This document shows, piece after piece, positions 22,384 through 30,980 of a stretch of DNA of 36,419 bases. The notes below the pieces were generated by a model. It was given only the letters and a program-made list of their open reading frames with translations. It ran no database searches and was not told the origin of the DNA. Position numbers and translations under genes: made by a program. The stretch is from Candidatus Moraniibacteriota bacterium (lineage in GTDB: Bacteria; Patescibacteriota; Minisyncoccia; Moranbacterales; UBA11712). Location of the stretch: the NCBI GenBank assembly GCA_030679895.1, contig JAUXSN010000002.1, positions 1 to 36,419 on the forward strand, given 5' to 3'. Every line of letters begins with the position of its first letter. Position 1 is the stretch's first letter.

Positions 22384-22404
22384 ATCCATCAAACAAACTC
22401 TCAT

Positions 22405-22545
22405 TAAATTTTCAATTTCTAATTTTAAATTTTCAAACAATGCCATAATTTCTCAATTTTAAATGATTAAATGTTTGAAAATTCGGTCATTGAAACATTG
22501 GAAATTGTTTAGAAATTGAGAATTGAAAATTGAAAATTATAAACT
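22405..22545. repeat. AT-rich imperfect inverted repeat
   Basis: The left half (AAATTTTCAATTTCTAATTT..., ending near AAACATT) is imperfectly complementary to the right half (...GAGAATTGAAAATTGAAAAT). Both halves contain short TTTTCAAT-type repeats. It fills the gap between the C39-like gene and the first lysozyme-like gene, and holds no ORF. Confidence 0.65.
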
Positions 22546-22573
22546 TGGCACCCCACCGATCTTGATATATAAT
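22545..22573 (+). promoter_or_regulatory. Promoter of the first lysozyme-like gene
   Basis: TTGGCA (22545-22550), a 17-nt spacer and consensus TATAAT (22568-22573). The leader is about 33 nt. Confidence 0.75.
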
Positions 22574-22612: not shown

Positions 22613-23632
22613 ATGTATTGTCTTGTTGATTTTCGAAATCGTCCGCAATATAAACACACCTTTCGCGCTCTTGAAAAAGCCAAAGAGTGCCTAAAAAAAA
22701 TCCGGAACAACCCCTTGGGAGCGACCATAATCTACGCTGACGGGCGAAGAGAATATTTTGAGAATGGACTTCCGGAAGGATATTCCGATTTTTCCGGGAG
22801 ATCAGCCTGCGTAAAAAAGGGCTGTCACGTGAAATACAAAATTCGCCGCCTTGGAGTTTTGGACGGATTGGCAAAAACCGCTCATACCGAAACAAAAAAT
22901 ATTCCAAATTGGAAAGAAAAATCGATTTTCTCTCTTTTTATGCTGGGCAATCGAAAATTTTACGCCTGTTTGGTTGTTTTGGCTCTTATAGCCTTCTCTT
23001 TCTCTTTTCTTTTTCAAAAAAAATTCGGGCCGGGATCCATCGCCCGATCCGGTGATAACGGGGAAATCCAAGGCCGGGTTGCCGGAGCCATGGATTCGAA
23101 AGTTGGCGATAGCTCCGAAGACCAGGGAAATGACGCTTCTCTTCAGCTGGCTGACGCTGACATCATTATGAGCCTTCTCGGAAAAGTGGAGGAAAAACAG
23201 CATTCAGCGTTCCAAAAAGAAATTCTGGGCTATATCAAGGGAAAACCGATGGAAAGTATGTCCCCTTATATCGCCAAGCAACCCAGAATAGTGGCCGCTT
23301 TCATCGTGGGAATCGCCATGAAGGAGAGCAAGTTTGGGATATATGCTCCGCATGACAGCAGTGGACGCGATTGCCTGAACTATTGGGGTTACAGGGGCAG
23401 AGAAAACACCACCGCTTCCGGTTATAGCTGTTTTGACTCACCCGAACACGCGATACAAGTCGTGGGGAAGAAAATAGCCTCACTGGTAAACCGTGGCATA
23501 AGCAACCCCGCCGAGATGATCTCCTGGAAGTGCGGCTCGACTTGCGCCGGCCATGGCGCGGAGAACGTCCGCAAATGGATCGCGGATGTGGGAGTGAATT
23601 TTTATAAGATAAACAAAGGGAAAAATTCTTGA
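22613..23632 (+). CDS. Membrane-anchored lysozyme-like (lytic transglycosylase/glucosaminidase-type) protein, paralog 1
   Basis: The 339-residue protein has a cytoplasmic N-terminal part of about 115 residues with several Cys (KECLKK, SACVKKGCH). One membrane helix follows (ACLVVLALIAFSFSFLF), then a linker, then a C-terminal domain of about 110 residues. That domain has AAFIVGIAMKESKFGIY, where the Glu-Ser dipeptide recalls the catalytic ES of lytic transglycosylases, then DCLNYWGYRG, GYSCF and WKCGSTCAGHG. Four Cys in the domain are shared with the next gene and could form disulfides outside the cell. A peptidoglycan-cleaving role is likely but not certain. The N-terminal region is not recognised. 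Confidence 0.75.
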   Translation: MYCLVDFRNRPQYKHTFRALEKAKECLKKIRNNPLGATIIYADGRREYFENGLPEGYSDFSGRSACVKKGCHVKYKIRRLGVLDGLAKTAHTETKNIPNWKEKSIFSLFMLGNRKFYACLVVLALIAFSFSFLFQKKFGPGSIARSGDNGEIQGRVAGAMDSKVGDSSEDQGNDASLQLADADIIMSLLGKVEEKQHSAFQKEILGYIKGKPMESMSPYIAKQPRIVAAFIVGIAMKESKFGIYAPHDSSGRDCLNYWGYRGRENTTASGYSCFDSPEHAIQVVGKKIASLVNRGISNPAEMISWKCGSTCAGHGAENVRKWIADVGVNFYKINKGKNS

Positions 23633-23865: not shown

Positions 23866-24732
23866 ATGAGTAACTTTGGAAGATCCGCTGTTTATGGGGG
23901 GATTTATGCCAAAGATCAAAACGAAAATACTTGCGAAAAATGCGATATTAAAATTAATTGCCGTTTCCGCAAAATCTCGAGCCTTTTCGAAAAATCACTA
24001 GAAATCGCGATAAATTGCTGGGGGAAAACAAAAGAATTATCAAATACAAGTAAAAATAAGCTAAAAGGACATATTTGGGAAAAACAGGATCTCTACCTGC
24101 CTGTTTTGATTGCCGCTGTTATGTTGGCCTTAGTTTTCTTGTCAAAGACCGCTTTTTCCAAGACTCCCGATATAACAAATAATTTGCCGGTTGAAGACAA
24201 CTATAGGATGAAATTGATCGGAACGAATATAAATCCTGGAAAAACAAAGATCTGTTCTGCTGATAATCCTGAATATCAGAAATATCTTGAGAATAACAAA
24301 GGGGGGGAATCCGACGATAATGGCTTGAAAGAAGATGTGGCCGCCATCGTGAAAAACACTCCTATGGCAGCCATGGCCGAAGCCATTTCCCAAAAATCCC
24401 GGCCGGTCGCCGCTTTCATTGTGGGAATCGCTATGAAAGAAAGCAAATTCGGAGTATATTCTCCGAAGCTTGCCGGACGCGATTGCTTCAACTATTGGGG
24501 TTTCAAAGGTGGCGGGAAAACCACCTCGGGCGGATATTCTTGTTTCAGTTCCCCTGACGAAGCCGTCAATGCTGTTGGAAATAAAATCGAAAAAATGGTA
24601 GCCAAGGGCGTTCGAAGTCCCGCTCAAGCAATCTCCTGGAAGTGCGGAAGTTCTTGCGCCGGCCACGGCCAAGCCAACGTCCAGAAATGGATTTCGGATG
24701 TCGGAATAAACTTCTATAAAATCAATTCGTAA
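23866..24732 (+). CDS. Membrane-anchored lysozyme-like protein, paralog 2
   Basis: This 288-residue protein is a tandem paralog of the preceding gene. The C-terminal 105 residues match closely: AAFIVGIAMKESKFGVY, DCFNYWGFKG, GYSCF, WKCGSSCAGHG and WISDVGINFYKIN, with all four Cys kept. The N-terminal half is unrelated apart from layout: a cytoplasmic part with CEKCDIKINC, one helix (LPVLIAAVMLALVFLSK) and a linker. This suggests duplication of the enzymatic domain with free divergence of the cytoplasmic part. It has its own promoter and a 167-nt leader. A bidirectional terminator separates it from rpoD. Confidence 0.75.
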   Translation: MSNFGRSAVYGGIYAKDQNENTCEKCDIKINCRFRKISSLFEKSLEIAINCWGKTKELSNTSKNKLKGHIWEKQDLYLPVLIAAVMLALVFLSKTAFSKTPDITNNLPVEDNYRMKLIGTNINPGKTKICSADNPEYQKYLENNKGGESDDNGLKEDVAAIVKNTPMAAMAEAISQKSRPVAAFIVGIAMKESKFGVYSPKLAGRDCFNYWGFKGGGKTTSGGYSCFSSPDEAVNAVGNKIEKMVAKGVRSPAQAISWKCGSSCAGHGQANVQKWISDVGINFYKINS

Positions 24733-26111: not shown

Positions 26112-27971
26112 TTATATCTCTATTCCTGATGCTAAATTTTGGAATTCATTCACCAATATTTTGACCGCTTCCTTGTCGCCTGTTCTTTCGGCTTCTTTTA
26201 TATCTTGGGTGATCCTGACAATTTTTTCTTTTATGCGCGTTTTTTTCAGCCTTTCAAGACATGCCTTCAACTCCAGAGCCGGATCGAAGAAACGCTGGCC
26301 CTCCGTTCTGTTTTCCGCCTCCACTTCTGCTTCGAGAATAGTCTCTTCAATAAACTTAACCAATTTATAATCGGAAAAAGAGCTTTTGATTTTAGCTGGG
26401 TCATAATCCCCTTTTTCTTTTTTTATCGCCTCAAGAATGCTTTTTTCTTCTTTTTCGAAAAAATAATCCGGTCTTATTTTTTCTAGTTGCCGCCGGCCTT
26501 CTTTTGGGAAAGCGAGGAGAAGGCCGATGATCCTTTTTTCGTGAGAATAGCCCTTTTTTTCTTGTTTTTTCTCTACTTCCCGCGAACCGGTTTTCGTTTC
26601 TCTTGTTTCTTTTTTGGACTGTTCCAGCACGTTTGCGAGGATTTTTTCTTCGGTGCCCAGTTTTTCCGCTAAAACCTTAAGCCAGTGGGATTGCTCGACC
26701 GGGCTCGAAATATCCTTGATCACATTCAGAAGCTCTTTGGCAATTTTTTTCTTTCCTAGCGGATCTTTCGAATCGTGCCGTGAAAATATGTCTTCGAAAT
26801 AATACTCAATCAGCCCCCTGGCCTCCAAAACGGATTTTCTCCAAATTTCTTTATTTTCTCGGATAATATCGGCTGCGTCTTTCCCGCTGGGCAGCAAGAC
26901 TATTCTAACATCTAAATCGTTCTCAAGACAAACGCGGGCGCTTTTTTTCGCCGCCGCTTGCCCCGCCGAATCCATATCAAAGGCCATCTTGAGATTTTCC
27001 GTGTAGCGTTTGATTATTTTTATCTGCTCGAATGTCAAGGCTGTTCCGGAAACCGCGACTGTATTCGGAAAACCGGCTTGAGAAGAAGCGATGACATCCA
27101 TATTCCCTTCGACAAGAATGATTTCGTCTTTTTTCCTTATTTCCGTCTTGGCCAGATGCAGCCCGTAAAGAGTCTTGCTTTTGTCGTAGAGTTCCGATTG
27201 GGGCGTATTGATATACTTGGCGTTTTTTTCGTCGCCTCCCGGAGCCACGCGGGCCGAAAAACCAACGACTCGCCCCATCACGTCAAGGATCGGAAACATG
27301 ATGCGGTCCCTGAATCTGTCATAACAACGATCAGCAGTCAGTGACCAGTGACCAGTATTGTTATTTAAATCTTTTCCAATTTTATTGTTCACTGTTCGTT
27401 GTCCACTGTTCACTGATTTTTCAACCAGCAATCCGGTTTTAGAAATATCGGCAATATTATAATTCTTCTTCAATAAAAATTCCAGAATATTCCGCCAGCC
27501 CTCTGGCGCGTAGCCGAGGCGGAATTTTCTCATTGTTTCGTCCGTCAAGCCTCGTTCGCGCAGATATTTCAGAATTTTTTCCTTTCCCGTTCCCTCCCAA
27601 AGATTTTTCTCGTACCATTTGGCGGCCAGTTCCAGAATCTTATAGAGTTTCGGCTTAACGCTGTCTTCCTTCTTTTTTGTCCCTTCATATTTTTTGAGTT
27701 GAACTCCCGCTTTTTGAGCCAGCTGTTCAAGAGCTTCCCGAAACCCGATGCCTTCCATTTCCATCACAAAGGAAAAAGCGTCCCCGCCCTTGCCGCACCC
27801 GAAACAGTGCCAGCTCCGGCGCTCTTCGCTTGCTATGAAAGAAGGGCTTTTTTCATTATGAAAAGGACAGAGCGCTTTCCAATTGCTCCCCGCTTTCGTG
27901 AGCCGGATGTACTCACCGATGAGTTCGACAATATTTACCCGGCTTTTTACCTCTTCGACATCGGAATTCAT
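26112..27971 (-). CDS. dnaG: DNA primase with an in-frame repeat-derived insert
   Basis: DnaG makes RNA primers at the replication fork. The N-terminal CHC2 zinc finger is CPFH...WHCFGCG. The catalytic core includes YDRFRDRIMFPI, VVGFSAR and the Toprim parts LVEGNMDVIA and AFDMDSAG. I use ATG 27971 and not the TTG at 28001, because the codons between overlap an extended -10 (TGGTATTAT). The protein is then 619 residues. Just before YDRFR, about 30 residues (VNSGQRTVNNKIGKDLNNNT...) are encoded by an inverted-repeat DNA element and are not expected in the family. rpoD follows 25 nt downstream. Confidence 0.95.
   Translation of the reverse strand: MNSDVEEVKSRVNIVELIGEYIRLTKAGSNWKALCPFHNEKSPSFIASEERRSWHCFGCGKGGDAFSFVMEMEGIGFREALEQLAQKAGVQLKKYEGTKKKEDSVKPKLYKILELAAKWYEKNLWEGTGKEKILKYLRERGLTDETMRKFRLGYAPEGWRNILEFLLKKNYNIADISKTGLLVEKSVNSGQRTVNNKIGKDLNNNTGHWSLTADRCYDRFRDRIMFPILDVMGRVVGFSARVAPGGDEKNAKYINTPQSELYDKSKTLYGLHLAKTEIRKKDEIILVEGNMDVIASSQAGFPNTVAVSGTALTFEQIKIIKRYTENLKMAFDMDSAGQAAAKKSARVCLENDLDVRIVLLPSGKDAADIIRENKEIWRKSVLEARGLIEYYFEDIFSRHDSKDPLGKKKIAKELLNVIKDISSPVEQSHWLKVLAEKLGTEEKILANVLEQSKKETRETKTGSREVEKKQEKKGYSHEKRIIGLLLAFPKEGRRQLEKIRPDYFFEKEEKSILEAIKKEKGDYDPAKIKSSFSDYKLVKFIEETILEAEVEAENRTEGQRFFDPALELKACLERLKKTRIKEKIVRITQDIKEAERTGDKEAVKILVNEFQNLASGIEI
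27331..27416. repeat. Inverted-repeat element inside dnaG
   Basis: Coding-strand left arm TCAGTGAACAGTGGACA is nearly the reverse complement of right arm TGGTCACTGGTCACTGA, with an AT-rich centre. Each arm is itself built of short CAGTGA-type repeats. The reading frame stays open through it. Confidence 0.75.
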
Positions 27972-27991
27972 CAGGTAAGGGTTGTTTATTA

Positions 27992-28000
27992 ATAATACCA
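27992..28000 (-). promoter_or_regulatory. Extended -10 of the dnaG-rpoD operon
   Basis: The minus strand reads TGGTATTAT, a TGn extension on TATTAT, about 20 nt before the ATG at 27971. This argues against the TTG start in the ORF track. Confidence 0.5.
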
Positions 28001-28067
28001 AGCCAACGGCGAAAATATTTCGCTGATTGAAGCAATGAAGTTTTTTCAGTTTGTGTTTAGTTTTTTT

Positions 28068-30906: not shown

Positions 30907-30980
30907 TTCCCTAACATTAAATGTTAGGGAATTTTTTTCGCGGGCTTTTTAATCTATTCCTAATCTCGTAGATTAGGAAT
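30907..30980. repeat. Two strong hairpins in the GT39-ahcY gap
   Basis: TTCCCTAACAT / ATGTTAGGGAA (30907-30931, TAA loop) and ATTCCTAATCT / AGATTAGGAAT (30956-30980, CGT loop). The T-run after the first is on the plus strand, where no gene is being read, so neither is a normal terminator for ahcY. The second lies 5 nt past the ahcY stop. Confidence 0.65.

Follow-up and report, generated by a model that had tools for sequence, protein, structure and literature searches.

A palindromic element with seven-base-pair arrays for arms lies in frame in the DNA primase gene of a Moranbacterales bacterium, at a loop site occupied by other such arrays in its relatives

The stretch of DNA analysed here (the window, 36,419 nucleotides in length) is contig C24 of a Candidatus Moraniibacteriota genome of 1.03 Mb in 57 contigs, 97.7% complete (hereafter G000), and it carries the DNA primase gene dnaG at positions 26112-27971 of the minus strand. 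The frame was assigned to dnaG by its profile match to TIGR01391 (E 5e-128) together with Pfam; the open frame runs over 629 codons (26112-28001, minus strand) to a TTG at 28001, with ATG 27971 as the inferred start codon. Among named DnaG records, the nearest is that of Candidatus Moranbacteria bacterium GW2011_GWF2_35_54. Inside the gene is a palindromic element of 91 bp with heptamer arms (27325-27415, minus strand; family A in what follows), which is translated in frame as VNSGQRTVNNKIGKDLNNNTGHWSLTADR. On the coding strand, the 5' arm (27381-27415) is made up of five 7-bp units (CAGTGAA, CAGTGGA, CAACGAA, CAGTGAA, CAATAAA), an AT-rich centre (27360-27380) separates the arms, and the inverted 3' arm (27325-27359) has the reverse complement CAACGAT, CAGCAGT, CAGTGAC, CAGTGAC, CAGTATT. 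Both arms are strict 7-bp arrays in which the units are degenerate with a patterned variation, roughly CARYGAW. In the protein, 31 residues are encoded between GLLVEK and YDRFRDRIMFP.

The original prediction, made from the sequence alone, had placed an inverted-repeat element of about 86 bp in frame at 27331-27416, with near-complementary arms, an AT-rich centre and about 30 extra residues just before YDRFRDRIMFP. All of this held, with a slightly larger element and with arms that are imperfect complements; the composition of short CAGTGA-type repeats held in part, the 7-bp periodicity of both arms having been only half seen. The view of a single insert must be corrected to that of an inverted pair of 7-bp tandem arrays at a recurrent loop site. 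The pattern CAGTGAACAGTG, allowed up to 2 mismatches, was found seven times in the window, five of the seven within the dnaG insert, against 0.68 expected, and TGGTCACTGGTCACTG, allowed up to 3 mismatches, was found in the window only within the insert, once per arm, against 0.05 expected. Single-strand folding of the palindrome is modest (z -1.9 as DNA and -2.1 as RNA) because the arms are imperfect, and a comparison with the curated RNA families of Rfam gave no match to E 0.1.

The dnaG insert is very likely one copy of a dispersed repeat family whose arms are inverted arrays of degenerate 7-bp units. BLAST found 24 matches of the element within its own genome, where AGTGAACARTGAACA at up to 3 mismatches was matched 119 times and its reversed pattern 42 times. 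Exact matches to the inner junction CAGTGAACAATA number 10 in G000, with none in G001 (the sole genome of the same genus that was compared) and none for the reversed sequence. When about 16 family A elements were aligned, the order of the units was partly common and the inner boundary CAATA...TATTG was common, while the sequence between the arms was not conserved among copies. The copies sit mostly in operon spacers between co-directional genes and some lie in coding frames; one of the three checks proposed with the original prediction, a search for further copies, came out in its favour, with both intergenic and in-frame copies. Family A is patchy among relatives, being present in G000 and in G003, G004 and G005, all three of other genera, and at or near the control level in G006 and in G001, where the signal is absent (1 match versus 4 for the control). 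At the element sites compared with G001, neither a target-site duplication nor fixed element ends could be defined, the flanks being too diverged.

Besides dnaG, family A lies in frame inside leuS, femAB and prmC. In leuS (TIGR00396), two inverted arrays flank conserved coding sequence at a distance of about 125 bp from each other and read SVISEQRSVNN and LFTVHCSLF; both read in frame, and the possibility of a frameshifted leuS was therefore rejected. The copy in the FemAB protein reads VSEQRTVNNEQ, that in PrmC reads FIVHCSLFTV, and a copy in rpsQ adds the C-terminal extension NEQRTVNSDQ to ribosomal protein S17. Arrays read in the 5'-arm direction give QRTVNN in DnaG and FemAB, QRSVNN in LeuS and QRTVN at the S17 C-terminus, and those in the 3'-arm orientation give FTVHCSL-like peptides in LeuS and PrmC. 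A perfect CAGTGAA array would meet a TGA in any frame within 21 nt. In dnaG, leuS and femAB, all in the 5'-arm direction, the unit whose TGA would be in phase has CGA (three of three), which is what survival of frame-preserving copies alone would produce. That the frames stay open in many unrelated genes speaks against an assembly artefact, with an artefact at a single site not excluded; the genomes compared are mostly draft assemblies.

The period of 7 was also recovered by an unbiased scan for degenerate tandem repeats over 436 kb of sampled stretches, about half of the genome. At a strict threshold there were 18 arrays at period 7 and 0-2 at the other periods from 4 to 13, with the multiple 14 also visible, and at a looser threshold 51 arrays versus at most 7; a Markov control gave 0 arrays, and the period-7 scan of a 50-kb stretch of E. 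coli found none. The heptamer families in the genome are unrelated in sequence (A, CARYGAW; B, AATTTTC/GAAAATT; C, CAAARCK; D, YARATAC), and at least 20 unrelated heptamers have nothing but the period in common. In family B a conserved core runs through 7 copies, each about 135 bp long, and one of these, of the same inverted architecture, lies in an operon spacer at 22404-22546 as the second element of the window. An inverted partner (17/24 or better) was found within 200 bp for 31 of the 51 arrays, compared with a direct partner for 7/51 and with 0/51 in a distant control stretch. In paired elements the same strand runs 3' inward in both arms, and the inverted heptamer arrays span 70-130 bp. 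By location, 32 of the 51 arrays are intergenic, 15 are at gene edges and 4 are inside genes, in a sample that is 88.9% coding according to a simple ORF caller. Outside family A, the genes with internal arrays encode an NrdG2-type activase (AISNFQFPISN), PheT (YQIPDTKYQI) and a glycosyltransferase, with a weak array as the fourth internal case. Single arms make up several of the arrays and most of the in-frame heptamer cases. Elements not internal to genes lie between co-directional genes in 29 of 32 cases, often touching stop or start codons, and co-directional gaps form the majority of intergenic gaps in this genome regardless of the elements (165 of 217). A CAA core common to all heptamers was considered and is not claimed, the signal being weak outside this genome (21/34 versus 15.3 expected). 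Period-7 arrays were also observed outside Patescibacteria, on two Omnitrophota contigs (L245, 2895-2977, and L248, 1236-1273), the pair on L245 being inverted (GTAAGCT / AGCTTAT).

An AlphaFold2 model of DnaG built from a 32-row alignment has a mean pLDDT of 87.5, and residues 201-218, between strands 192-194 and 226-228, fall below 50. The core flanking the insert is confident (neighbours above 88), and primases of the PDB align before and after this stretch and not through it. The low confidence and the gap in the PDB alignment are most simply explained by a disordered loop, which is a prediction of the model, and the insert is likely a tolerated extension between the two strands that precede YDRFRDR, its neutrality being inferred. 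In G001 the DnaG loop is 18 residues shorter and lacks the repeat, and the sites of the family B element in a dnaK/grpE-like spacer and of the family C element at L091:8208 are likewise empty or shorter. The other two of the three checks put forward with the original prediction came out in its favour as well: neither the DnaG of the same genus nor distant DnaG proteins carry the insert, and it forms a low-confidence loop within an otherwise confident model. Neither of the two outcomes that would have refuted it, conservation of the insert in distant DnaG proteins or lack of any other copy in the genome, was met.

The DnaG loop is a recurrent site for unrelated heptamer arrays in many relatives, and the G000 insert is not a single odd event. 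Among 30 DnaG loci of the order, the same loop is filled by differing arrays, with units CARYGAW in G000 and G005, ATACNAR in five genomes, and ACAACRA, ACAACCC, CAAARCT, CCTACAA or an AAATTC type in others. When the loops 30 nt or longer were pooled, the lag-7 self-match was 0.478 versus 0.295 after shuffling (z 13), with further peaks at 14 and 21 and none elsewhere. On a DnaG tree built without the loop, eight loop labels, given by eye, require 9 changes, with labels A and D accounting for two apiece. Across the order the loop is longer than outside it, where most DnaG proteins have a short one; one Yanofskybacteria DnaG has gained ACAATGAACAAGGAACAATGAAC at the same loop. The HAFDA loop of PheT carries ATACCAR, GGATCAA, ATCAARR, AAATCAA, AAATCCC and CTAACAA units in six genomes, other sites in PheT are also occupied by arrays, and the FemAB loop of G019 is an apparent third case of a refilled loop. 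A second in-frame heptamer array was observed in the dnaG of G003 (L061, 2996-3027), at about residues 95-103, between the zinc domain and the catalytic core.

The genome also contains five Y1_Tnp matches, four of them above the Pfam cut-off. These four RAYT-like Y1 transposase genes, L105 (C15:71838), L106 (C27:26591), L107 (C22:18349) and L108 (C2:4399), each have their own perfect short palindrome at the flanks, and at L105, L107 and L108 an extra palindrome copy lies in frame within the transposase gene. The REPs of these loci are 15-23 nt long and not heptameric, and no heptamer arrays were found beside the four loci; the fifth, below the cut-off, was outside this check. These REPs are a second, separate class of element that lies in frame in genes. 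The CTTGGAAACTWAGTTTCCAAG REP has 12 of its 13 copies within called genes, in frame and read as LETKFPS, LGNLVSK or WKLSFQV, with hosts that include SMC (identified from N-terminal sequence only), DnaX, MnmA, PheT (two) and RuvX (two), and all eight half-sites of the GGAAGYTWARCTTCC type are within called genes, including UvrC and LeuS. The in-frame cases lie at L095, L097, L091, L103, L109, L110 and L085, and a glycosyltransferase is also among the hosts. At least two of the called genes carrying REPs are weak, one a short ORF and one a RAYT gene itself. G001 lacks the REP segment in SMC, DnaX and one glycosyltransferase. In the window, an L108-type copy (TTCCTAATCTCGTAGATTAGGAA) was observed in a spacer at 30957-30979, with another palindrome (TTCCCTAACATTAAATGTTAGGGAA) nearby.

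The original prediction had proposed a parallel to the Rickettsia palindromic elements (RPE; Ogata et al. 2000, 2002, as summarised in PMC10969869). This held for behaviour: both are dispersed palindromic repeats of around 100 bp (here 91 bp, about 16 copies) with several families in a reduced genome, inserted in frame in unrelated housekeeping genes, tolerated as an extra protein segment and absent from a close ortholog (here the G001 dnaG). A conserved translated peptide, another RPE feature, is seen at most in part, and the differences are that here the arms are degenerate 7-bp tandem arrays of many unrelated heptamer families, most copies are intergenic, in-frame cases are mostly single-armed, the same protein loop is reused, and the phylum is another. 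The element behaves like an RPE and is built differently, a likeness in behaviour that carries no evidence on common descent. In make-up it is closer to the known heptanucleotide repeats, namely the STRRs of cyanobacteria and TAACTGA of Beggiatoaceae (PMC4679880), and GGGAATC of Xanthomonas and GGGGA(C/T)T of Nostoc (PMC4692102). These have a period of exactly 7, form short dispersed arrays mainly between co-directional genes, adjoin start or stop codons and in some cases overlap gene ends. However, they chiefly consist of a single fixed unit repeated in direct orientation, with inverted sets reported as exceptions, whereas the arrays described here have degenerate units, belong to many families, mostly form inverted pairs and repeatedly lie in frame within conserved proteins. 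REP/RAYT systems likewise consist of short palindromes in many copies, and this genome has RAYT-like genes with flanking REPs of its own, but the heptamer element is longer, has a period of 7, is not beside the four RAYT-like loci, and consists of inverted arrays of 70-130 bp instead of an imperfect hairpin of 20-40 bp with a tetranucleotide tag. MITEs are also short, non-coding, dispersed inverted repeats; the element has inverted arms, but no fixed terminal inverted repeat of a known transposon and no target-site duplication were seen, its ends being too diverged to show a duplication. The open-access literature searched held nothing on palindromic or heptamer repeats in CPR/Patescibacteria and no account of the combination seen here, in which the same protein loops are occupied by degenerate, inverted heptamer arrays from many families; subscription papers were outside our reach.

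We consider it likely, with a probability of roughly 0.7, that the insert is a dispersed, non-autonomous palindromic repeat that has been copied to new sites and is tolerated in DnaG. The element would be copied with the aid in trans of an unidentified activity, and copies would persist where they are harmless, in tight operon spacers, at gene ends and in surface loops where the frame is kept open. Spread by copying is itself an inference, and we moderately favour it over growth in place, mainly because copies agree in their degenerate unit order and share an exact inner junction, and because family B has a conserved core. A simple mobile unit of one piece is argued against by the two leuS arrays split by conserved coding sequence, by the single-armed copies, and by the many unrelated heptamers that are alike solely in period and geometry.

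Growth in place remains possible. Slipped-strand steps of 7 nt would build the array and template switching at the fork would make the inverted arm, with nothing moving and with loops and spacers tolerating the result. This explanation is supported by the prominence of period 7 (with 14) alone among periods 4-13, by the 20 or more unrelated heptamers with only their period in common, and by the unrelated heptamers that the same DnaG and PheT loops carry in relatives; among long simple repeats, heptanucleotides are reported to be the most frequent kind in most bacterial genomes, and a model of slippage by the polymerase footprint has been proposed for them (PMC4679880). Against it, dispersed copies of one family have a common degenerate unit order and an exact inner junction, the family B core is common to 7 copies of about 135 bp, slippage predicts identical adjacent units while neighbours here differ patternwise at the R, Y and W positions, and the dnaG arms, unlike the products of a fresh template switch, are not exact complements. 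RAYTs act on palindromic REPs, and it might be supposed that the genome's own Y1 transposases spread the heptamer palindromes as REPs, given the four genes over the cut-off, the fifth below it, and the in-frame position of their REPs inside genes. This is very unlikely, and RAYTs were rejected as carriers, the four loci each being flanked by a differing palindrome of their own, short and non-heptameric.

If a telomerase-like reverse transcriptase added templated heptamers to DNA 3' ends, the inward-facing inverted arms would be accounted for; this origin was rejected and is all but excluded, a search of the 97.7% complete genome for the RVT_1 domain having given no match. The loop could also be a selected functional part of DnaG, for example a partner-binding segment, and its greater length across the order than outside agrees with that. 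However, its length and sequence vary between close relatives, it is predicted to be disordered, and its peptide matches those from the same repeat in unrelated proteins, which makes a selected function highly improbable. A bolder reading, which we can offer only as a possibility, is that Patescibacteria, and perhaps other lineages such as that of an Omnitrophota contig, have an undescribed process making inverted pairs of 7-bp arrays of almost any sequence. If true, it would continually supply essential proteins with new surface loops, and over time different heptamer families would come to fill one and the same loop.

A review of prokaryotic MITEs sets Rickettsia apart for how unusually often palindromic repeats there are fused in frame to genes, and suggests that proteins may evolve by this route in other organisms too (PMC10969869). 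The Patescibacteria case is a clear parallel, with two element classes at once, in which dispersed repeats repeatedly become parts of essential proteins. It provides a testable source for odd loops in CPR proteins, as a period-7 scan of loop DNA flags them. It also raises the pointed question of why the period is exactly 7 bp and the pairs are inverted, which the comparative genomics of densely sampled CPR clades could answer. Elsewhere in the window, the neighbouring ORFs 22613-23632 and 23866-24732 have a 60-bp stretch that is 83% identical and are probably tandem paralogs.
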